Positions 5,464 to 61,315 of a DNA stretch of 64,000 nucleotides are shown here, piece by piece (position 1 is the first letter of the stretch; each line of letters begins with the position of its first letter). Source of the DNA: Massilia sp. CF038. Lineage in GTDB: Bacteria > Pseudomonadota > Gammaproteobacteria > Burkholderiales > Burkholderiaceae_D. The position numbers were made by a program, and so were the translations under genes. The stretch is taken from positions 1,426,001-1,490,000 of the forward strand of contig NZ_FQWU01000001.1 of assembly GCF_900129765.1 (NCBI RefSeq). Direction: 5' to 3'. The notes below the pieces were generated by a model. It made no database searches and had not been told where the DNA came from. It was given only the letters and a program-made list of their open reading frames with translations.

Positions 5464-6080
5464 GGCAGCACTCCCATCAGGTAGACAAAGGTGAAGACGC
5501 CGATCCAGACGACGTCGAGGAAGTGCCAGAACATCGACAGGCACATCAGGCGGCGGCGGTTTTCCGGCGTCAGCCCATGCTTGCCCAGCTGGACCATCAG
5601 CGTCACCAGCCAGATGATGCCCGAGGCGACGTGCAGGCCGTGCGTGCCCACCAGCGTGAAGAAGGCAGTCAGGAAGCCGCTGCGCTGCGGGCCGGCGCCT
5701 TCGCCGATCAGGTGCGCGAACTCGTACAGTTCCAGGCCGATGAAGCCGGCGCCCAGCAAACCGGTGATGCCCAGCCAGATCAGGGTGGCGCGCAGGCGCC
5801 GCCGCTGCATTTCGAGCATGGCAAAGCCGAAGGTGATCGACGAGAGCAGCAGCAGCGAGGTGTTGAGCGCCACCAGCGGCAGATCGAACAGTTCTGCGCC
5901 GGTGGGGCCGCCCGCGTAGTTGCGCCCCAGGACAGCGTAAGTCGCGAACAGCGCGGCAAACACCAGGCAATCGCTCATCAGGTAAATCCAGAAACCGAGC
6001 AGGGTGCCGTTTTCAGGATGGTGTTCGCGCACGTAAAAACGGGCGCTTGGGTCGGTGGCGGGGAGCGTAATATCAGACAT
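5460..6080 (-). CDS. cyoC: Cytochrome bo3-type quinol oxidase subunit III
   Basis: A 206-residue membrane protein with five predicted helices, as in CyoC. Recognisable segments are [20 protein letters not shown] near residue 30, the [15 protein letters not shown] stretch of the haem-copper oxidase subunit III family, and [19 protein letters not shown] at the end. It has no catalytic metals of its own and stabilises subunit I. The start overlaps the end of cyoB by eight bases, and its stop overlaps cyoD. Confidence 0.96.
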
Positions 6081-8076
6081 GGCTATCCAGCATCAGGGAG
6101 CGACTGTGTTCGGTCCGGGCGACCTGCTCGGCCGGAATGAAGTAGTCGCGTTTGTAATTGAAAGTGTGAACGATGATCGCGGCCAGCAGGGCAACTGCAC
6201 CCACGCCGGCGATGAGCCACATGTGCCAGATCAGGGCGAAGCCCACCAGGCCGCTGAGCATGGCGATGACGAAGCCGGCACCGGTATTTTTTGGCATATG
6301 GATCGGCATGAAGTTCTCGCGCGGACGGGCATACGCGTTCGCTTTCATGTCGGCCCAGGTATCGTTGTCATACACCTGGGGCGTGAAGGCAAAGTTGTAG
6401 TCCGGCGGCGGCGACGAGGTCGACCACTCGAGCGTGCGGCCATTCCAAGGGTCGCCCGTCACATCGCGCAGGGCGGCGCGGTTGCGGTAGCTGACCACGA
6501 ACTGGATCAGCATCGAAGCAATCCCCAGCGCGACCAGCACGGCGCCAATGGCGGCCACCACAAACCAGATCTGTAGTGAGGGGTCGTCAAAGTGGCTGAC
6601 ACGGCGCGTCACGCCCATCAGGCCAAGTACATACAGCGGCATGAAGGCCAGGTAGAAGCCGACCACCCAGAACCAGAACGAGCATTTGCCCCAGAATTCA
6701 TCGAGCTTGTAGCCGAAGGCTTTCGGGAACCAGTAGTTAATGCCAGCGAAGACGCCAAACACCACGCCACCAATGATCACGTTGTGGAAGTGCGCAATCA
6801 GGAACAGGCTGTTATGCAGCACGAAGTCAGCCGCCGGCACCGCCAGCAGCACGCCGGTCATGCCACCGATAACGAAGGTGATCATGAAAGCGATGGTCCA
6901 CAGCATGGGCAGCTCGAAGCGGATGCGGCCACGGTACATGGTAAACAGCCAGTTGAAGATCTTGGCCCCGGTCGGGATCGAGATGATCATGGTGGTAATA
7001 CCAAAGAACGAGTTGACCGAGGCGCCAGAACCCATGGTGAAGAAGTGGTGCAGCCAGACCAGGTAGGACAAAATGGTAATGACTACGGTGGCATACACCA
7101 TCGAGGTGTAGCCGAACAGGCGCTTGCCCGAGAAGGTCGACACCACTTCCGAGAACACGCCAAACACCGGCAGGATCAGGATATACACCTCGGGGTGGCC
7201 CCAGATCCAGATCAGGTTCACATACATCATGGCGTTGCCGCCCAAATCGTTGGTGAAGAAGTGGGTGCCGGCCATGCGGTCGAGCGAGAGCATGCCCAGA
7301 ACCGCGGTCAGTACCGGGAAGGCGGCCACGATCAGCACGTTGGTGCACAGTGAGGTCCAGGTAAATACAGGCATCTTCATCAGCGTCATGCCGGGCGCGC
7401 GCATTTTGACGATGGTGGCGATCAGGTTGATCCCGGATAGCAGCGTGCCTACCCCGGCGATCTGCAAGGACCAGATGTAGTAATCCACGCCCGGATCGGG
7501 GCTGGCCATGATGCCCGACAGGGGCGGGTAGGCCAGCCAGCCGGTGCGGGCGAATTCACCCACGAACAGCGACACCATGGTCAGGCCGCCGCCGGCTGCC
7601 GTCATCCAGAACGAGAAGTTGTTCAGGAAGGGGAAGGCGACGTCGCGCGCACCGATCTGCAGCGGCACCACGTAGTTCATCAAGCCAGTCACGAGCGGCA
7701 TGGCCACGAAGAAGATCATGATCACGCCGTGCGCGGTAAAGATCTGGTCATAGTGGTGGGGCGGCAGGAAGCCGGCGTTGTCGCCAAAGGCCATGGCTTG
7801 CTGGGCGCGCATCATCAGGGCGTCGGCAAAGCCGCGCAGCAGCATGACGATACCGAAGATGATGTACATGATGCCGATTTTTTTGTGGTCGATACTGGTG
7901 ATCCAGTTGCGCCACAGCGGGCCCCATTGCTTGAAATAGGTGAGGGCGCCCAGCATGGCTGCGCCGCCAAGCGCCACCATGATGAAGGTCGCGATCAGGA
8001 TCGGCTCGTGGAGGGGAATCGCTTCCCAGGACAGCCGCCCCAGCAGCGGCATCGATTGATCAATATTGTTTTGCAT
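6073..8076 (-). CDS. cyoB: Cytochrome bo3-type quinol oxidase subunit I
   Basis: The 667-residue catalytic subunit binds low-spin haem, high-spin haem and CuB and reduces oxygen to water while pumping protons. The CuB/Tyr site is seen in [17 protein letters not shown], the paired CuB histidines in WLHHFFTMG, and the haem ligands in [12 protein letters not shown]. The length matches E. coli CyoB (about 663), longer than cytochrome c oxidase subunit I because of extra N- and C-terminal helices, which supports quinol rather than cytochrome c oxidation. It overlaps cyoA by 17 bases and cyoC by eight. Confidence 0.98.
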
Positions 8077-53088: not shown

Positions 53089-53706
53089 CTACAGAACGTA
53101 GAACAGGATCGTGAAGTAGTGCAGGGCGCTGCCGCCAATGACGAACAAATGCCAGATCCCGTGGGCGTGGCGTAGCCGGTCATCAAGCACGTAGAACACG
53201 ATGCCGACGGTGTACACCACGCCGCCGGCGGCCAGCCACGCGAAGCCGGCCGTGCCCAATGCTGCGTGCAGGGGAATCAGGGCCGCCAGTGCCGCCCAGC
53301 CCATGACCAGGTAAATCGCCAGCGATAACTTGCGCGCGCCGCCATTGGGCCGCATTTCCTGCAGCACGCCCAGGATGGCCAGGCCCCACACCACGGCCAG
53401 CAGCGGCCAGCCCCAGGTCTCGCGCAGGGAGACCAGACAAAATGGGGTATAGCTGCCTGCGATGAGCAGGTAAATTCCATGATGATCCAGCTTTTGCAGC
53501 AGCTGCTTGGCCGGACCGCGCACGCTGTGATACAGGGTGGATGCGCTGTACAGCAAAATCAAGGTGGCACCGTACACGGCAACGCTGGTGATGGCCCAGG
53601 CGTCGCCTGCGGTGGCGGCTGTGACCAGCAAGACCACCGTACCTGCGACGGCCAGCAAGGCGCCGACCAGGTGGGTCCATGCGTTCAGTTTTTCTCCGTG
53701 ATACAT
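53089..53706 (-). CDS. Hemolysin III family (YqfA/TrhA-like) membrane protein
   Basis: A 205-residue protein with seven membrane helices. YHGEKLNAWTHLVGALLA, YSASTLYHSVRG, KLDHHGIYLLIAGSYTPFCL and RLRHAHGIWHLFVIGGSALHY carry the conserved His, Asp and Ser pattern of the PAQR/hemolysin III superfamily. ATG at 53706 (GGGAG six bases upstream) is chosen over an upstream TTG. The name comes from a Bacillus protein; in Gram-negative bacteria it is linked to membrane lipid/energy homeostasis, not haemolysis. Its stop abuts the convergent permease gene. Confidence 0.9.
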   Translation of the reverse strand: MYHGEKLNAWTHLVGALLAVAGTVVLLVTAATAGDAWAITSVAVYGATLILLYSASTLYHSVRGPAKQLLQKLDHHGIYLLIAGSYTPFCLVSLRETWGWPLLAVVWGLAILGVLQEMRPNGGARKLSLAIYLVMGWAALAALIPLHAALGTAGFAWLAAGGVVYTVGIVFYVLDDRLRHAHGIWHLFVIGGSALHYFTILFYVL

Positions 53707-53763
53707 CGATGCTCCCAATTGAATAGCGGGACCATTGTAGTCGATGACGTCGCGCCCGACTCC

Positions 53764-54093
53764 TTACCTGGCGGCCGGGGCGACAGGCTCGATCAGTACC
53801 AGCTTGCCCGTCTTCGGATCGCGGAACACTTCGCCAACCCGGTCGTAGCCGTTGCCGTTGTGGGCTGTGCCGCTGGCCGGCTGGGTGATTTCCTGGCCTT
53901 TTTCGACCGGCTTGGGTGCCTTCAGCGCGCTCTGGGTGCCGGCGGCGAGGGCTGCGATCAGACCGCAGGCAAATACCAGCATGACGTCCACCAGGTTGAC
54001 CAGGCTGGCGCGCGGATCTTCATCACTGTCGTCGAAACGCGCATCCAGGCGTGAATACAGGCGCAGTGTCTTGCGGCTTGGCGGGGTGCTCAC
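53764..54093 (-). CDS. DUF2149 protein, ExbD/TolR-like
   Basis: A 109-residue protein. One membrane helix at about 30-50 in LVNLVDVMLVFACGLIAAL, where Asp in NLVDVMLV matches the proton-carrying Asp of ExbD/TolR proteins; the rest (KPVEKGQEITQP, GKLVLIEPV) is periplasmic. Published family placement is DUF2149, usually next to ExbB-like and CobN-like genes. It likely forms a proton-driven pair with the preceding gene, with which it overlaps by four bases. It is HmuU-like in position. Confidence 0.87.
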   Translation of the reverse strand: MSTPPSRKTLRLYSRLDARFDDSDEDPRASLVNLVDVMLVFACGLIAALAAGTQSALKAPKPVEKGQEITQPASGTAHNGNGYDRVGEVFRDPKTGKLVLIEPVAPAAR

Positions 54094-54530
54094 GCTGCCG
54101 CCTCCATCGCTTCGAGTGTCTCTTCGTACCAGCGGCGGCGCAGTTTGCCGATCACCAGGCCGCCAATGCCGGCCACCAGGCCAAGCACGGTGGCGTCAAA
54201 GGCGACGGTGACGGCGCTGGCCAGTTGGGCCGGATCGCCTTTGCCAAGAGCGGCCAGGCCGGGCCCGAGCGGAATGATGGTGGCCATCAGGCCCAGCATC
54301 GGCGGGATCCGCGCCAGCAGGTCGGCGCGTTCGAGCCGGTGGCGCGCGATTGCCTGCACCTTGGCCATGTCGCCGGTGCTGCGCAGACGGGCCAGGCCGA
54401 ACCAGCGCTCGCCGGCGGCGATACCTGCTTCAATAACGGCGATGGCGCAGGCCAGCAACAGCGCTGCCAGTGCTGGTGTAAGTAGCCAGGTCACTGCATC
54501 GTGCAGCCAGCTGAAAGAAAAAGCACTCAT
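54090..54530 (-). CDS. MotA/TolQ/ExbB-like proton channel protein
   Basis: A 146-residue protein with three membrane helices: TPALAALLLACAIAVIEAGI, then LARIPPMLGLMATIIPLGPG (the conserved TolQ/ExbB proton-channel region) and VTVAFDATVLGLVAGIGGLV, ending in a cytoplasmic KLRRRWYEE tail. It is shorter than ExbB/TolQ (about 240), as usual for the copies next to CobN-like genes. Start is taken at ATG 54530, which overlaps the chelatase stop by four bases. It probably uses the proton gradient to power the chelatase or receptor complex. HmuT-like in position. Confidence 0.88.
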   Translation of the reverse strand: MSAFSFSWLHDAVTWLLTPALAALLLACAIAVIEAGIAAGERWFGLARLRSTGDMAKVQAIARHRLERADLLARIPPMLGLMATIIPLGPGLAALGKGDPAQLASAVTVAFDATVLGLVAGIGGLVIGKLRRRWYEETLEAMEAAA

Positions 54531-57500
54531 GAAAACTCCTGTTTTTGAAATTGGGGGACGTGCTGGCCCCGCCATAGTCCCAGCGCAAACAGCGCCAGGG
54601 ATGCCGCGAGCAGCGAAAGAATGGTGACAGTGCGGCTGACGACGTCGACCGGGGCGACGGCCGTCTCGGTCAGCTCGTAGTAGCGTGGTGCCGGCGCTGC
54701 TGCGGCCCCGCCTGGCGCGGCGGGACTGTGCTCCGACGCAGCCGGTCTTTGACCGGCAGGCTGCTGGCGCTGGCCTGCTGCTGCGCTGTCGGCAGGCAGC
54801 GTTTCACCACGCGCCTTGGCCAGCGTCACGCCCAATGCTCTGGCGTCGGCCGCCTCCAGTTGCGGCGCCAGCCACTGCCACATCGGGTGGTCGGGCGCCG
54901 CGTGTCCGCTGCCTGGCAGACCGTTCCTGGCCACCAGCTGCGCCAGCTCGCCGCCCATTTTCTTGATGGTGGCAGCGTCTGTCTTCCAGTAGCCTTTTTC
55001 GGCAGCGACCATGAAAATGGCCAGCATGTGCGCCTTGACGTGAGCGTTATGATCCTTGCCCAGAAATTGGGGCAGGCCCAGTTGCTGGGAGTCGTCGAAG
55101 TACACGGCCTTGACTTCATCCCAGGCCCAGTTCTTGACCAGGTCTGGCCGCGTGACCTGCCAGCCCCACAAGTTCTCCAGGAATTCCTGTCCCATGGTGC
55201 GCGCGCCTGCGTAGCCGTGACCCATCAGGGGTTTGAGCCAGGCTGGATTGAGAAAGCGTCCGCGCAGTTCGCCCAGCAGGGCGGTGGTGAGCGGCTCCAC
55301 ATCGGCCCGGCCAGGCTCGGCGTGCTGCAGGATCAGCGCCTCGGGCGGGTGGCCGGTACGTCCCTCGATTGCCAGCGACAGGCCGCCCAGGTAGTCGAAG
55401 GCGTCGTTGTTGTCGAGCAGGCCGTACAGATTGCTGGCACGGCCGTGATAAGTGCGGGCGATGCCATCGAGCGCGCTGTCAAAGGCCGCGTGGTTCGCTT
55501 CACCGCTTTCGTCCAGGCCGTAGGCGTGCCCCATGCGATTGCGGTAGGCGCGCCCGATCTCGTCGCGCTCGCGCCATGCGCCCGAGCGCTCGGTCAACCG
55601 GTTCACCCCAGTGCCATACGCGCCCGGGGCATCACCAAAGATGCGCTGGGCGGCGGCGCGGCCCGCATCCACGCTGGCCATGCCGCCATCCTGCAACGCG
55701 CGCTGGCGCACCAGCCACTCGCGCGCAACGCGGTTGTCGGCCGGCGCTTCGCTGCCCCACGCGGCGGTGGGCACGGGGGCCAGGGCCGCGCTCAAGGCGT
55801 CTTTCAGTTCAGGGTGCTGCGCGGTTAGCGTGTTGGCCGACGCCGCCAGCGACAGGCGTCCTGCACGGTCGATCAGGTTGATCAGGTTGGGGTACAGATC
55901 GCGGAACAATCCGGAGGTGGTAACCAGCACATCGCGCCGGACGGCGCCCGGCTTGAGCCGCACGTCGGTAACGATGCCGCGCGCATTCCAGACCGGTTCC
56001 GCACCCATCAGCGACAGGGCAAAGGCCACCATCACGCCTTCGTCGCGCACCGCGTCGGACGCCCACAAAATAATGCCCTCGCTGCCTTGGCCCGATTTGT
56101 CGCGCGCGGCTGCCTTTAGCGCCATTTTTTCACCGAGCCCGTAGCCCAGCCGGGTGGGCAGAATATCGCCGTCGACAGCGTGGAAATTGCGGCCCGTGGG
56201 CAGCGCGTCTGGCGAGCGCAATGGATCGTTGCCCTTGCCCGGTGCGACATAGCGGCCATCGAGTCCGGCCAGCAGACCCAGCATCTCCAGACGGGGCGAA
56301 TCGGCCAGCTTGCGGCTGACCGCGGGGTCGTCGATGCCGCCTTTTTTCATCGAGCCAAGCATCAGATCAAGCGAGGCCTGATTCCAGGGCCGGCCAAAAA
56401 TGTGCAGACCAAAGGGCATGAATTTTTCCTGCAGCTTGGTCAGGTAGTGGCCCACTTCGTGCGCCAGCAAGTCATCGTCTGCCGCTTCAAAGCCAATGCC
56501 GCGCACTTCCAGCACGTCCGCCATCGACGCTTCCAGCTCGGCTTTCAGGTTCAGTGCCACGACCTGTTCGCGCATGCCCTGCGCGGCCTGCGCCTTGAGC
56601 GACTCGGACGACGCCGATTCAAAGCTTTCCACTGCCTGGCGCAAGGTCAGCAGCTGGTCGTACAGCGGGGTGGTGGCGAGTGGCGGCGTGAGGTGGTCGA
56701 CAATCACCGCCAAGCCGCGCCGCTTGGCCTGCGTGCCTTCACCGACGCCGTCCACGATATAGGGATAGACGCCGGGCAGGTCGGCGGCAATCAGGCTGGG
56801 ATAGTCGTCCGCGCTCAGCCCAACGGCTTTGCCGGGCAAAAACTCATAAGTCGAATGGCGGCCCACGTGCACCATGGCGTCGGCCTTGAAACGGTCGCGC
56901 AGCCAATGGTAGTAGGCCAGGTACTGGTGCGGCGGGGTGACGCTGGTATTGGCGTGCAGGAGTTCTTCGTCCACTTCCCAGCCGCGCGGCGGCTGCGGGC
57001 CAATGAACACATTGCCAAACACCAGACCAGGCACCAGCAGCTTGCCGCTGTCGACCATGATTTTTCCGGGCGCCGGGCCCCAGCCTTTCAAACCCTCGAT
57101 GCCGTAGCCGGTGATGCGGTCCTTGGTGGCGCCCAATGTGGCGCAGCGGCGCGTCGGCTGGTCTGCCAGGCAGGCCTGGTAGCCTGCCTCCAGTGCGCGC
57201 AGGTCGGCAATGGCTTCCAGGCGGCGCGGGTGGGCGGCGCCTTCCACCAGGTGGTGCAGTTCCTTGAGAATGGCGTTGGCGCGTTTGCGTCCGACCGCGC
57301 GTTCGTTGGCCGCTTCCGCTTCCAGTACCTCGGCATGCAGGCGGCCCAGCGGTCCGCTGGTCATTTCGCCCTGAATGCGCGGCGCCAGCGTGGCGAACCA
57401 GCGTGCGTAATCTGCAGCGCTGACCGAATTGACCGAGCCGCTCAGTTCGCGCAGGGCGGCCCTGTCTTCGGGCAGATTGACCCCGTGCGCCATGATCCGG

Positions 57501-58855
57501 TCGAGCAGGGCTTCGGGGGAGGCCGGCAGTTCGCCGACCGTGTAGCCAGCCGCCTTCATCGCATGCAGCATGTCGAACAGCGTGGCTGGCACGTCCAGAT
57601 TGTCGGCGCCAATGTTCTGGCGGCCGGGCGGGTGGTTGTAGTAGATGACGGCCACGCGCTTGTCCGCATTGGCCTTGGCGCGCAATGCCAGCCAGCGCTG
57701 CACGCGCGCGGACAGGCGTGCCACTTCCGCATCCAGCGTGACCGGCAGGCGGTTCTCGATCCCCGTCTGGCGATCCGCTCTGGCCGCGCCGAGCGCGGCG
57801 ACCACGATGGGTTGCCCGATGCCTTGCAGTTCCGGCAGCGCGACCCGGTACTGCACCGAATCGGGTGGCAAGCCGTCGGGCGACAGGCGCCACTGGGTGG
57901 CACTGCGCTCGCTCAGGCGGATCGCCTTGAAGACAGGTACATCGAGCTGCTTGAAGGCGTCGGTCACGGCCTCTCGCCCTTCCGCCGCGCCCACCACAAA
58001 GTCCTGCAGGATCACCAGCGCCGCCGTTTTGGCTGGCGCAATCAGCGCTGGCAAGCGTTCCAGCGCCTGGCGCGACGCGCCGCCCCAGCGCGTGAGCACC
58101 TGCACGCAGGGCTGGCCGCGCTGCTCGATGGCGCGGCAAATGTCCGCTGGTGCTGTGCCGTCCATGTTGGCCAGGTCCAGCACCACCACGGTGGGGACGG
58201 CCTTCAGGCCCAGTTGCGCCGCATTGCCCCAGGCGGCATCGTCGCTCAATTCCTTCTGGCCCACGCGCAGGCGCAAGGTAGCTTCCGGCTGCACCGGTGC
58301 CATGGGCTGGCGCGGATCGAGCCGGTGCGCCAGCAAAGCCTGGGTATTGTCGACACCACCAGCTTGCCAGATGCGGCGCGCCGCAAGCCAGTGGCTGGCC
58401 GTCGGCCGGGCCTGGGCGGCGCGCAGGGCATCTTCCGAAGGCTGTTCGGCAGCCAGCTGGCGCAGCGTTTCGGCCGGGAAGTCCTCCAGGCTGCCATCGG
58501 CATCGCGGCTCATCAGGTTCAGGCTCGCTTCCCCATTCATGGCCAGGATGGGCGTCTGCCGGCGCGCGTGCCGCGCGAGCGCATCTTTCAGCTTGCGCGC
58601 CGGGTCGCCAAACACCGAGACTGCCAGCACGCTGTCGGCCTGACCGATCCACTGGCCCAGCTGGCGGTCGCTGGCAGCCATCAACTGTGCCGGCGTGCGC
58701 AGAACGATGCGGTCGCCCGGATGGCTGGCCAGATGCCGGTGCGCCGCTTCGATCGTGACCGGGGCCGCGCGTTCGGTCACCACCCCAAACAGGGTGGCGG
58801 CGTGTATCTGCGGCAGGCTGACCGTCAGCAGGCAGGCCAGGAGTACGCGCTTCAA
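54527..58855 (-). CDS. Periplasmic membrane-anchored CobN/BchH-like chelatase
   Basis: A 1442-residue member of the CobN/magnesium chelatase H family. VIYYNHPPGRQNIGADNLDV, VHVGRHSTYEFLPGKAVGLS, and AKRRGLAVIVDHLTPPL are family-core segments. Cytosolic CobN lacks secretion signals, whereas this protein starts with a signal peptide (MKRVLLACLLTVSLPQIHA, about 1-19) and ends with a Pro/Gln/Ala-rich linker and one helix (about 1406-1425), so the bulk is probably periplasmic. The start is a TTG overlapping the receptor stop (TTGA). No cobS, cobT, bchD or bchI partner is near. HmuS of Bacteroidota, a similar CobN homologue reported to remove iron from haem, is the closest parallel. Its substrate here may be a corrinoid given the upstream riboswitch. 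Confidence 0.92.
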   Translation of the reverse strand: MKRVLLACLLTVSLPQIHAATLFGVVTERAAPVTIEAAHRHLASHPGDRIVLRTPAQLMAASDRQLGQWIGQADSVLAVSVFGDPARKLKDALARHARRQTPILAMNGEASLNLMSRDADGSLEDFPAETLRQLAAEQPSEDALRAAQARPTASHWLAARRIWQAGGVDNTQALLAHRLDPRQPMAPVQPEATLRLRVGQKELSDDAAWGNAAQLGLKAVPTVVVLDLANMDGTAPADICRAIEQRGQPCVQVLTRWGGASRQALERLPALIAPAKTAALVILQDFVVGAAEGREAVTDAFKQLDVPVFKAIRLSERSATQWRLSPDGLPPDSVQYRVALPELQGIGQPIVVAALGAARADRQTGIENRLPVTLDAEVARLSARVQRWLALRAKANADKRVAVIYYNHPPGRQNIGADNLDVPATLFDMLHAMKAAGYTVGELPASPEALLDRIMAHGVNLPEDRAALRELSGSVNSVSAADYARWFATLAPRIQGEMTSGPLGRLHAEVLEAEAANERAVGRKRANAILKELHHLVEGAAHPRRLEAIADLRALEAGYQACLADQPTRRCATLGATKDRITGYGIEGLKGWGPAPGKIMVDSGKLLVPGLVFGNVFIGPQPPRGWEVDEELLHANTSVTPPHQYLAYYHWLRDRFKADAMVHVGRHSTYEFLPGKAVGLSADDYPSLIAADLPGVYPYIVDGVGEGTQAKRRGLAVIVDHLTPPLATTPLYDQLLTLRQAVESFESASSESLKAQAAQGMREQVVALNLKAELEASMADVLEVRGIGFEAADDDLLAHEVGHYLTKLQEKFMPFGLHIFGRPWNQASLDLMLGSMKKGGIDDPAVSRKLADSPRLEMLGLLAGLDGRYVAPGKGNDPLRSPDALPTGRNFHAVDGDILPTRLGYGLGEKMALKAAARDKSGQGSEGIILWASDAVRDEGVMVAFALSLMGAEPVWNARGIVTDVRLKPGAVRRDVLVTTSGLFRDLYPNLINLIDRAGRLSLAASANTLTAQHPELKDALSAALAPVPTAAWGSEAPADNRVAREWLVRQRALQDGGMASVDAGRAAAQRIFGDAPGAYGTGVNRLTERSGAWRERDEIGRAYRNRMGHAYGLDESGEANHAAFDSALDGIARTYHGRASNLYGLLDNNDAFDYLGGLSLAIEGRTGHPPEALILQHAEPGRADVEPLTTALLGELRGRFLNPAWLKPLMGHGYAGARTMGQEFLENLWGWQVTRPDLVKNWAWDEVKAVYFDDSQQLGLPQFLGKDHNAHVKAHMLAIFMVAAEKGYWKTDAATIKKMGGELAQLVARNGLPGSGHAAPDHPMWQWLAPQLEAADARALGVTLAKARGETLPADSAAAGQRQQPAGQRPAASEHSPAAPGGAAAAPAPRYYELTETAVAPVDVVSRTVTILSLLAASLALFALGLWRGQHVPQFQKQEFS

Positions 58856-60924
58856 AACGCAACTCTCAGGTTCACACGCAAGGTACGCGGTTCGAGCGGA
58901 TGGATCAGGCGGCCGTCAATACCGCCGTTGCACTCGCCATTGGCCTGTTCGTTACGGGTACAGGCGCCACCCCAGTATTCGATGTCGTTGGCCTTGCGGT
59001 CGAACAGGTTCAGGATGTCGGCGCTGAACTGCACTCTGGGCGCGATTCGATAGCCCAGCTTCAGGTTGGCCGTGTAGAAGGGGGACGACTTGTGTGCGCC
59101 GGTTTCTTCCAGCGCATAAGCGCCCAGGTAGCGCATACGCAGCCCGCCGAACCAGGGACCGCCATAATCGACCCCGATGCCCAGCGATGCCGTCAGCGGG
59201 ATCGCATTCGGAATGTCGGTGCCGCCACCCTCGACTGCTTGTTTGAAGCGGGCCTGCGACCAGGCGATGTCGCCATCGATGATCAGCCAGGCGTTCGGAG
59301 CGTAGTAGTTGGACCATTCGATGCCGTGGCGCGTTGATGCACCGCGCGCCTCGGTCACGCCCTCGTCACCCACGAACACCAGCTCGGAACCCAAGTCCAT
59401 GTGCCACACCGACAAGCTGCTGCTCCATCCTGGCAGCACGGTGGTGCGCAAGCCCGCTTCGGCGCCACGCGCCTTGGAGAACAAGCCCAGTTTTTCAGTG
59501 CTGCTGCCGTCGGCCGGGTTCATGACGGAGGTGGCGCCGCGCACGTCGTTGCTATGGAAACCCGTGCCCCAGTTGGCATACAGCTCGGTTCTGGCCTGTG
59601 GTCCGAAGGGGCCAAACACCACGCCCAGCTTGGGGCTGGCCTGACCGGCATGGACGCTGCCGCCATTGGTGAGATTGAATTGGCCAGCGGCTGCCGTCAC
59701 ATCGGCATGGATGCGGTCATAGCGCAGGCCCGCGGTGGTGCGCAGCCATGGACGCCACTGGGTGCGCGCCTGGATGAACAGGCCGGCTGCGGTGTCCGTG
59801 ATGCGGTCCTGGCGCACGGTGTTGGTGCGAACGCGTGCCACAGTGTCGTACAGGCCGACGCTGTCAATCCGGTCCTGGCGCAATTGCAGGCCAAGCGTCA
59901 GTTCGGTGTCGTCCAGGTACCAGGCCTGGCTGACCTGTCCGCCCCAGGTAAGGCGCTGGTCTTCCTGTTCGTGCTGGTCGCCCTGCGGCCCGTTCATGAA
60001 GCCCGATGGCGCCGAGAACAGGTTCAGACCGTAGTCAATAACGTAGGCGCTGGCCTTGCTGGCACCGAGCGCGTTCGAGCGTTCCCACTCGCCGGACAGG
60101 CTGTAGCGATGAGTCACGCCACCATCGTGGCCGGACAAGGCACCGAAGCGGCCAATCTCGCCCCGCTCGATGGCGCGTTCGGGCACGTGTTCGGTCGCAT
60201 CCCACTCGGACTTGTACGCCAGGGCGCTGATCGCATAGCCGTTGTGCGCGGTGCCGCTCGACAGGCGCAGCACGGCATTGGTCTTGCGCAGGTGCTCGGG
60301 CTGGTCCCATGGCCCATTGTTGCGGGCCGCTTCGAATGCCCCCAGCAGCTGCATGCCGTCGATGCTGCCGCTGCCAGCAGCGAGCACGCGTCGAAAGCCA
60401 TGCGGTCCGGCCGTCAGGTCGGCAAACGGTGCCGGCAACTGGCGCTGGTAATCGATCCGCGCCGACCCGGTGGTGGTGAAGTCCCCGTCATCGGCCGCGT
60501 ACACGCCTTTTCGATACCTGACGTTTGCCACCAGTTCGGGAATCAGGAAGTTCAGATCCATGTAGCCCTGGCCGTGACCGTGGCTTGCCACATTGACCGG
60601 CATGCCCATTAAGCTGGTAGCAAAGTCGCTGCCATGATCAAGGTTGAAACCGCGCAGGAAGTACTGATTGGCCTTGCCGTCGCCCGAGTGCTGGGTGACG
60701 ATCATGCCGGGCACGGCCTCCATCACTTCGGAGGCGCGCAGCAAGGGACGGGTGGCCAGCTGTTTCGCCGTGATGGCGCCTTCGGTGGCCGAGTCGGCAG
60801 TGCCGACCATGCCGGCGCGCGCGCCGGTGACGACCACTTCCTGCATGACAGGTACGCCAGTGGCGAAGGCATAGGCCGATACGGCCCAAAGGGAGGCGGG
60901 CAGCCAGTATTGAAGCACTTGCAT
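58852..60924 (-). CDS. TonB-dependent receptor under B12 riboswitch control
   Basis: A 690-residue outer membrane receptor: signal peptide (about 1-21), TonB-box-like EVVVTGARAG, plug domain (ATRPLLRASEVMEAVPGMIV, HSGDGKANQYFLRGFNLDHG) and a beta-barrel ending in LRVNLRVAF with a terminal Phe. The barrel shares features with receptors next to CobN-like genes and is not obviously a copy of E. coli BtuB. The leader carries a cobalamin riboswitch, so a corrinoid is the likely cargo. It is the first gene of a five-part unit and overlaps the chelatase start by four bases. Confidence 0.92.
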   Translation of the reverse strand: MQVLQYWLPASLWAVSAYAFATGVPVMQEVVVTGARAGMVGTADSATEGAITAKQLATRPLLRASEVMEAVPGMIVTQHSGDGKANQYFLRGFNLDHGSDFATSLMGMPVNVASHGHGQGYMDLNFLIPELVANVRYRKGVYAADDGDFTTTGSARIDYQRQLPAPFADLTAGPHGFRRVLAAGSGSIDGMQLLGAFEAARNNGPWDQPEHLRKTNAVLRLSSGTAHNGYAISALAYKSEWDATEHVPERAIERGEIGRFGALSGHDGGVTHRYSLSGEWERSNALGASKASAYVIDYGLNLFSAPSGFMNGPQGDQHEQEDQRLTWGGQVSQAWYLDDTELTLGLQLRQDRIDSVGLYDTVARVRTNTVRQDRITDTAAGLFIQARTQWRPWLRTTAGLRYDRIHADVTAAAGQFNLTNGGSVHAGQASPKLGVVFGPFGPQARTELYANWGTGFHSNDVRGATSVMNPADGSSTEKLGLFSKARGAEAGLRTTVLPGWSSSLSVWHMDLGSELVFVGDEGVTEARGASTRHGIEWSNYYAPNAWLIIDGDIAWSQARFKQAVEGGGTDIPNAIPLTASLGIGVDYGGPWFGGLRMRYLGAYALEETGAHKSSPFYTANLKLGYRIAPRVQFSADILNLFDRKANDIEYWGGACTRNEQANGECNGGIDGRLIHPLEPRTLRVNLRVAF

Positions 60925-61033
60925 TCGATCTTCTTCACGATGACGCCGTCACCGCATGCAAATCGAACGTGGGCAAGCGTGGCGCGCACAAGCGCCAGGC
61001 GAAGCCTCAGTCAACGGACAAGGAAGTAACGGC

Positions 61034-61063
61034 AAAAACAGACAAAACCGATCCCCGGGTTTT
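61034..61063 (-). terminator. Possible riboswitch-controlled terminator
   Basis: On the minus strand AAAACC-N8-GGTTTT is followed by GTCTGTTTTT. The stem is short (six base pairs, A/T-rich) but lies just downstream of the aptamer and 110 bases before the receptor start, where an expression platform is expected. The region 60925-61033 is otherwise an untranslated leader. Confidence 0.4.
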
Positions 61064-61074
61064 GCACTATCAAG

Positions 61075-61270
61075 CGTGAAGGCCGGTCTTCTGGCTTGCC
61101 TTCATCCTCTTTTGTCCTTGCCTTCCCGTGCGCTGCACAGTGGCGTATGAACAAAATCGTCAGGCATACAGCAGCGGGGGCTGCGCCGGACTGGCAGGAG
61201 ATGGAGATCTCCTGCGGCACCGGCTTCCCGTTTCACCCTCCAGCCGACAAGCGGGAGGGCACCATTCACG
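61075..61270 (-). ncRNA. Cobalamin (B12) riboswitch aptamer
   Basis: Read on the minus strand, the region contains the hallmark pieces in order: TGGTGCC (start of the aptamer core), GGGTGAAACGGGAAGCCGGT, GCGCAGCCCCCGCTGCTGTA, and the B12 box AGCCAGAAGACCGGCC at 61096-61081. The outer stem P1 pairs CGTGAA (61270-61265) with TTCACG (61080-61075) exactly. This class binds adenosyl- or methylcobalamin and usually represses downstream uptake genes. It stands 150 bases before the TonB-dependent receptor and should control the whole receptor-chelatase-channel unit. Confidence 0.95.
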
Positions 61271-61315
61271 TAGTGGCGGGATTCTACCGTGAATGGCGGA
61301 CGGGATCAATCGGGC

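Follow-up and report, generated by a model that had tools for sequence, protein, structure and literature searches.

A cobalamin riboswitch-controlled unit of a receptor, an exported CobN-like protein and an ExbB-DUF2149 pair in Massilia, with a probable role in B12 uptake and salvage

Described relatives and the Massilia locus

Units that encode a TonB-dependent receptor, a CobN-like protein and ExbB-type partners are already in print: the hmu operons, PA1922-PA1925 of Pseudomonas aeruginosa and a cluster on plasmid pSZ77 of Geobacter lovleyi. Here we describe a related unit of four genes behind a cobalamin riboswitch in a stretch of 64,000 nucleotides of the Massilia sp. CF038 genome (contig NZ_FQWU01000001.1, positions 1,426,001 to 1,490,000; hereafter the window). 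From sequence comparisons, the unit is probably a periplasmic, corrinoid-handling stage of B12 uptake and salvage, coupled to the proton motive force (PMF). This reading draws on the four genes and their riboswitch, on a conserved trio of CobN-like protein, ExbB and DUF2149 protein, on the B12 operons in which the trio is found, and on the joint loss of the motor pair and of the C-terminal helix of the CobN-like protein in Marinobacter. Exported proteins of this kind are often annotated as cobaltochelatases, although neither what powers them nor what they act on is settled. Outside a few characterised clusters, most sequences of the superfamily defy reliable annotation (PMC12583661).

The hmuYRSTUV operon also combines a receptor, a CobN-like protein (HmuS, PDB 9d26, of the same fold family as the Massilia protein), the ExbB-like HmuU and the DUF2149 protein HmuV, the latter so identified from the annotation order in PMC10434189. 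That system is iron-regulated, and its HmuY and HmuT have no counterpart in the window. Therefore, the order shared is receptor-S-U-V and not hmuRSTU, as a preliminary description of the locus had put it. Some hmu-like operons carry a cobalamin riboswitch, as in Bacteroides fragilis NCTC 9343 (PMC10100974), and BtuS has been named as a third type of CobN (PMC6460266, citing Rodionov 2003). BtuS and these Bacteroidota operons likewise have an exported, anchored CobN-like protein under B12 control, and the Massilia protein, exported, CobN-like and under a B12 riboswitch, falls within the BtuS definition as relayed by PMC6460266. However, the hosts of BtuS are Bacteroidota, the tests in PMC6460266 concern haem iron, and the likeness is one of description.

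PA1922-PA1925 form one operon with receptor, CobN-like, ExbD-annotated and hypothetical genes, controlled by Zur and induced by lack of zinc (PMC4542158); PA1924 and PA1925 may correspond to ExbB and DUF2149. The cobN-exbB-exbD-tonB cluster of pSZ77 combines CobN-like and ExbB-type genes with TonB receptors and lies between cobalamin clusters, with no CobS or CobT (PMC3403914); its protein (sequence H2, taken as that of pSZ77) is about 32% identical to the window protein, and the word riboswitch is absent from that paper's text. The cytoplasmic CobNST cobaltochelatase has CobN homology, an invariant histidine and an aligned aspartate in common with the window protein, but the latter is exported and anchored, and its genome has neither CobT nor a marker of the de novo pathway. 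A literature search found no publication on the proteobacterial clade described below, although a B12 phenotype may have been published for it.

The features of the Massilia unit are the following.

61064..61281, minus strand, cobalamin riboswitch aptamer (RF00174, full-length; cmscan 114.7 bits, E 5.1e-28)
61042..61065, minus strand, terminator-like hairpin with a T run, adjoining the 3' end of the aptamer (pattern scan)
58852..60924, minus strand, TonB-dependent receptor of 690 aa, family R1 (Pfam Plug and TonB barrel)
54527..58855, minus strand, CobN-like exported class I chelatase homologue of 1442 aa (PF02514, E 1.9e-241)
54090..54530, minus strand, ExbB/TolQ/MotA-family protein (PF01618, E 5.3e-8)
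53764..54093, minus strand, DUF2149 protein with an ExbD-like membrane helix (PF09919, E 3.1e-9)

The preliminary description had placed a cobalamin riboswitch at 61075-61270, and the Rfam covariance search recovered it with slightly wider limits and far above the gathering threshold of RF00174 (31.5 bits), as the sole gathering-level match across the window. The adjoining hairpin (61065-61042) is likely the expression platform, acting by transcription attenuation. This assignment is suggestive: the 521-base stretch has two terminator-like sites against 0.6 expected in shuffles, weak evidence alone, and the hairpin is also present in the minimum-energy fold, the z-score of the overall fold being merely -0.82.

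Pfam domains agree with the gene content first described, and the start-stop overlaps said to join all four genes are found as three 4-nt junctions (TTGA, ATGA, GTGA), given an exbB start at 54530. This start is codon 16 of the longest frame, with AGGAG five nt 5' of the ATG, and in 5 of the 16 close relatives (L049, L052, L053, L054, L056) the longest frame itself begins near this position. The first ATG of the frame, at 54575, is probably not the true start, since it would create a 49-nt overlap with the CobN-like gene. Likewise, the signal peptide and C-terminal anchor claimed for the chelatase homologue correspond to a signal-like N-terminal segment and a C-terminal hydrophobic helix, both read directly from its sequence.

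A search of PDB sequences with the window ExbB returned nothing significant, and the model of the DUF2149 protein is of low confidence (helix 29-52, pLDDT 68, pTM 0.28). Asn33 and Asp36 of the latter are conserved in 79/79 sequences, and the invariant membrane aspartate sits in the stretch NLVDVMLVF, which resembles the ExbD motif. The pair therefore has the marks of an ExbB/ExbD-type stator, namely a MotA_ExbB domain (PF01618) and a partner with a membrane aspartate, and D36 would carry the protons. On the same strand, a gene for a TrhA/haemolysin-III family membrane protein (53089-53718) starts 45 nt past the DUF2149 gene and may share its transcript.

Conservation of the trio and its B12 context

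Relatives were sought in named genomes with alignment A1; 465 were obtained and the best 80 were kept, so that counts out of 80 refer to these nearest loci. Their record titles assign them to the beta- and gammaproteobacteria, except one titled Myxococcota. The preliminary description had proposed to follow this gene order across proteobacteria and to count the riboswitches before it. ExbB lies directly downstream of the chelatase gene in 79/80 loci and DUF2149 in 78/80, the exceptions being L117, at a contig edge, and L161, which has neither. A same-strand riboswitch lies upstream of the CobN-like gene in 75/80, in 74 by a covariance model (R1) built from 16 riboswitches and in L147 by Rfam (37.5 bits). 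Some of these 16 share species with some of the 80 loci, so that, for the nearest loci, the model gives no independent test; its four weakest matches (L138, L141, L143, L151) exceed the Rfam gathering score. Of the 74, 48 are within 700 nt and 26 are farther upstream, behind other genes.

Specific B12 genes (BtuR, CbiA, CobU, CbiB, CobS, CobT and BtuC) were counted within 8 kb: at least one is present in 33/80 loci and at least three in 29/80. In L131, L144 and L150 (Halomonas/Billgrantia) the order is riboswitch-BtuB-CobN-ExbB-DUF2149-BtuF-BtuC-BtuD, and elsewhere the trio comes after BtuB-BtuC-BtuD-BtuR or BtuR-CbiA. Since it sits inside B12 import and salvage operons of many relatives, the trio probably handles B12-type molecules in uptake; the riboswitch and B12 gene counts support the earlier proposal of a corrinoid rather than haem. 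An N-terminal export-like segment was detected by hydrophobicity in 69/80 relatives, and the CobN-like gene is the sole one of its family in 24 of 29 genomes picked from the 80. Near the unit of two Pseudomonas genomes, Rfam also reports a sucC RNA (L143, 4772-4839; L151, 2212-2279).

Within the same taxonomic family, 99 of 294 genomes searched gave a match at the cut-off of E 1e-20. Besides that of the window, 16 orthologues are near full length, with 76-79% identity, and all of them (16/16) have a same-strand upstream riboswitch; therefore, the arrangement in the window is not due to chance. In these 16 the riboswitch adjoins the CobN-like gene, and some have a recognisable receptor downstream, whereas others have none in the vicinity. 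Among 18 family loci, only the window and genome G014 have the receptor between riboswitch and chelatase. In G014, of the same genus (L060, 4873-12422), the whole unit has decayed with stops, chelatase and receptor being broken, and the same-strand upstream riboswitch is kept (115.5 bits). In G159 the chelatase gene is in two parts almost 1.9 Mb apart on one contig (L058, L059), by rearrangement or misassembly.

In the tree, the clade of the window (clade A, 43 sequences) is set off by a long, fully supported branch from clades B and C, cytoplasmic CobN and BchH. Clade B comprises eight family loci (L061-L068) with the order ExbB, DUF2149, CobN; a riboswitch lies upstream in 7/8, none in L068, and in L063 and L066 a receptor is placed after it. 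The seven family loci of clade C (L069-L075) have no riboswitch upstream, and in L073 one match of 35.6 bits lies past the DUF2149 gene. That unit also includes a ChaN-type haem-binding protein (5531-6511), which points to haem. Three Zoogloea loci also have ChaN-like matches on the upstream side of their B12 unit (L100, 553-2077; L101, 552-2075; L130, 1275-1979), accompanied in L100 and L101 by an ExbB-like match.

Runella, the one Bacteroidota relative in the tree, falls with clade B. On plasmid pRUNSL01 of Runella slithyformis (L223, 2095-12812), a TonB receptor, a urease-accessory-type protein, ExbB, DUF2149 and CobN are encoded within a hyp cluster for hydrogenase maturation, and this setting suggests that the machine also has a nickel-linked form.

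The chelatase homologue, its motor and the C-terminal helix

The window protein shows no clear preference among its PDB relatives ChlH (358 bits), HmuS (347 bits) and CobN (339 bits). By score, CobN is nearest for one clade B protein and HmuS for one clade C protein (L070); clade C, to which this one tested HmuS-like member belongs, is distinct from the clade of the window and has no upstream riboswitch. The counterpart of HmuS His-538, H667, is invariant in 63/63 aligned proteins of all classes and, being superfamily-wide, is not diagnostic of HmuS. R666 and S668 are invariant in 43/43 clade members and absent from the 20 others, and 58 columns separate the two sets likewise, one exception allowed.

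A kinship with HmuS had been proposed in the preliminary description; the common superfamily and the conserved H667 stand, whereas orthology was rejected. HmuS His-1209, of the stretch LSLDHxxEFMGG, is aligned with D1151, an aspartate in 43/43 clade members; the head/neck haem ligand His-254 aligns with E292; and between aligned stretches 2 and 3 HmuS has 293 residues, a long methionine-rich domain-IV insert, against 86 in the window protein. A canonical cytoplasmic CobN was also rejected, given the export segment, the C-terminal helix and a genome with no CobT or CbiC.

The same residues bear on a role as dechelatase, in which the protein would strip the metal from imported haem, corrinoid or metallophore chelate and supply the cell with metal or ring, as HmuS of the same superfamily has been shown biochemically to do (PMC12583661). 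We hold this to be quite unlikely. H667 is kept, and other units with receptor and CobN appear linked to iron, to zinc (PMC4542158) and perhaps to nickel, as in the Runella hyp cluster; but His-1209, His-254 and the domain-IV insert of HmuS are not kept, and B12 scarcity would be a poor cue for corrinoid destruction. Moreover, as the genome of the window has no CbiC, it would have little need of cobalt for corrin synthesis.

The Marinobacter locus L161 lacks not only ExbB and DUF2149 but also the C-terminal helix, and the genus was surveyed in 100 genomes. A match was obtained in 26, with 22 intact genes (L192-L213), three split or truncated ones and one weaker match of 36-38% identity. The C-terminal hydrophobic helix is absent from 22/22 intact orthologues (last 60 residues; best 19-residue mean -0.73 to 0.58, against a strict cut-off of 1.6). 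ExbB and DUF2149 were not found in the 1.1-1.5 kb downstream in 22/22 loci, ExbB being tested beside the gene only, and the DUF2149 profile matched none of the 22 genomes, whereas each of the 8/8 control genomes gave one match or more. In contrast, the helix passes the cut-off in 71 of the other 79 named loci; it is below the cut-off yet visible in L111, L114, L118 and L159, farther from the end in L099, in another frame in L115, and broken off by the contig end in L117.

Nine Marinobacter sequences in the tree form one clade (support 0.93), whose sister is a Halomonas group in which the trio is complete (joint support 1.0). Therefore, ExbB, DUF2149 and the helix were probably lost together once, a co-loss that probably ties the C-terminal helix of the chelatase homologue to the ExbB-DUF2149 motor and indirectly supports the earlier idea of a proton channel pair in place of an ATPase. 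In agreement with it, a plasmid copy of the same clade in Marinobacter sp. M3C has riboswitch, receptor, BtuF-type protein, permease, ATPase, CbiA, helix-less CobN, CobO, CobQ and BluB, with no ExbB or DUF2149 annotated.

The co-loss also bears on the view that ExbB-DUF2149 is a private motor which energises TonB and the receptor, the chelatase not being its client. Such a role has been proposed for HmuU-HmuV and for PA1924 (PMC10100974, PMC4542158). For the present clade it appears unlikely, as motor loss coincides with loss of the chelatase helix while BtuB still adjoins the gene in 17/22 Marinobacter genomes, and in the relatives the motor genes lie directly downstream of the chelatase gene (79/80 and 78/80).

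Receptor, host and proposed role

The window receptor scores 20.4 bits with TIGR01779 (BtuB), against a cut-off of 599.7. Foldseek searches with its AF2 model (pLDDT 75.6, pTM 0.80) gave PqqU/YncD as best match, with Fiu, OprC and FecA also found and no BtuB among the best 50, and a search of PDB sequences gave nothing at E 0.01; an ordinary BtuB was thus rejected. Receptors of its family, R1, occur next to chelatases of both clades A and B, with identities of 62-73% (ten loci) or 41-44% (six loci), and a riboswitch lies directly upstream of them in the window, L066, L082, L083, L096, L102, L118 and the decayed L060. Six histidines (H79, H97, H115, H117, H457, H675) are invariant in all 17 receptors of alignment A5 and may form a metal or cofactor site. 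Near the trio there is also a second receptor family, accompanied by a PepSY_TM protein (by Pfam in L048, by similarity in the others), in four cases with a riboswitch of its own (L086, 13247-17356; L113, 15471-19641; L115, 17068-20016; L155, 3149-7329). We take the PepSY_TM protein to be reductase-like, and the pair may perhaps serve a reductive step at the inner membrane.

The host genome has one CobN-family gene (PF02514, three pieces in one frame) and no match to CbiC/CobH of corrin-ring synthesis (PF02570). Of the earlier statement that no cobS or cobT partner is present, the part on CobT was extended to the whole genome, with no match to PF06213; CobS, the chelatase partner, was not searched. 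The B12-binding domain (PF02310) is found in four places, and there are three cobalamin riboswitches including that of the window. The second precedes a receptor, FecCD-type permease, ABC ATPase, BtuR, CbiA-like protein, CobU, CbiB and an aminotransferase, and a CobS synthase and a phosphoribosyltransferase are encoded nearby; the third precedes a second receptor and a BtuF-like periplasmic binding protein. Pfam backs ten proteins of these two clusters, where the names BtuB, BtuC, BtuD, BtuF, CobD and CobT (phosphoribosyltransferase) are presumed from gene order. Given the absence of CbiC, the B12-binding domains and the uptake and salvage set under the two further riboswitches, the host appears to use and salvage B12, with standard uptake already in place.

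The ligand, the mechanical coupling and the chemical step of the unit are what we infer from these data, as follows. When AdoCbl is scarce, the riboswitch would permit expression of the operon, and the receptor would import its ligand, most probably a corrinoid or a precursor of one, to the periplasm. There, the exported CobN-like protein would bind it in its chelatase cleft, act on it or hold it, and then pass it toward BtuF-BtuCD. The ExbB-DUF2149 proton channel would grip the C-terminal helix and feed PMF into the big protein, in analogy with ExbB-ExbD for TonB and with ATP hydrolysis by CobS-CobT for cytoplasmic CobN. Hand-over or metal insertion is favoured over metal removal since either fits induction by B12 scarcity better. 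Cobalt removal or exchange and tetrapyrrole remodelling, which the preliminary description had listed as possible jobs, are hypothetical.

In one narrower form, which we consider a serious possibility though short of an even chance, the CobN fold would be an adaptor that hands corrinoids from receptor to BtuF with no metal chemistry, ExbB-DUF2149 opening or releasing it. Salvage enzymes are cytoplasmic and need no periplasmic chelation, and the Marinobacter protein, with neither motor nor helix, still lies between BtuB and BtuF in 17/22 genomes (in the other five, neither is within the examined flanks). However, the active-site H667 and the aligned acidic D1151 are invariant in 43/43, and a pure binding protein need not keep both; moreover, BtuF-like proteins are already present.

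The retention of these two residues fits better the other narrower form, in which cobalt would be put into metal-free or wrongly metallated exogenous corrinoids at the expense of PMF. This appears rather doubtful. CobB, a homologue of CbiA, makes the substrate of CobN, and CbiA is encoded within 8 kb in 25/80 loci; but CbiA acts in the cytoplasm, Marinobacter has no motor, and a periplasmic source of cobalt would be required. Induction under B12 scarcity, as deduced from the riboswitch, would suit such a step, and cobalt insertion into exogenous cobalamin has been put forward for Chlorobaculum tepidum (cited in PMC8620254). Slightly more doubtful still is the fully mechanical version, a PMF-driven chelatase in which ExbB-DUF2149 pulls the C-terminal helix of periplasmic CobN to power insertion or exchange of the corrinoid metal, replacing the CobS-CobT ATPase; if true, B12 repair or completion would occur outside the cytoplasm.

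Several observations weigh against a PMF-coupled, corrinoid-handling role. Since the window receptor is not a BtuB, its ligand is one that we infer. No same-strand upstream riboswitch was found in 5/80 loci: in L137 and L152 the sole one is on the opposite strand, and L126, L133 and L145 have none, with 1.2-1.3 kb upstream examined in L126 and L145; moreover, as the 465 relatives were cut to the 80 nearest, the rate of 75/80 is valid for this clade only. The Marinobacter co-loss concerns one clade and so is probably one event, L107 keeps ExbB and DUF2149 and seems to have no tail helix, and Marinobacter keeps a protein with H667 and no motor, so that not every function depends on the motor. 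Finally, presence of the unit was not associated with loss of de novo synthesis (CbiC in 3/17 genomes with an intact copy and in 61/277 without; Fisher p 1.0), and a link with B12 auxotrophy was rejected.

With a periplasmic, PMF-coupled stage of corrinoid handling as the probable role, this clade of CobN-like proteins gains a clear physiological setting in many beta- and gammaproteobacteria, namely the uptake and salvage of B12. Whether an ExbB/ExbD-type motor may drive a periplasmic enzyme or carrier instead of TonB becomes a testable question, and the same logic would extend to HmuS, to the zinc-regulated unit of P. aeruginosa and to the possibly nickel-linked unit.

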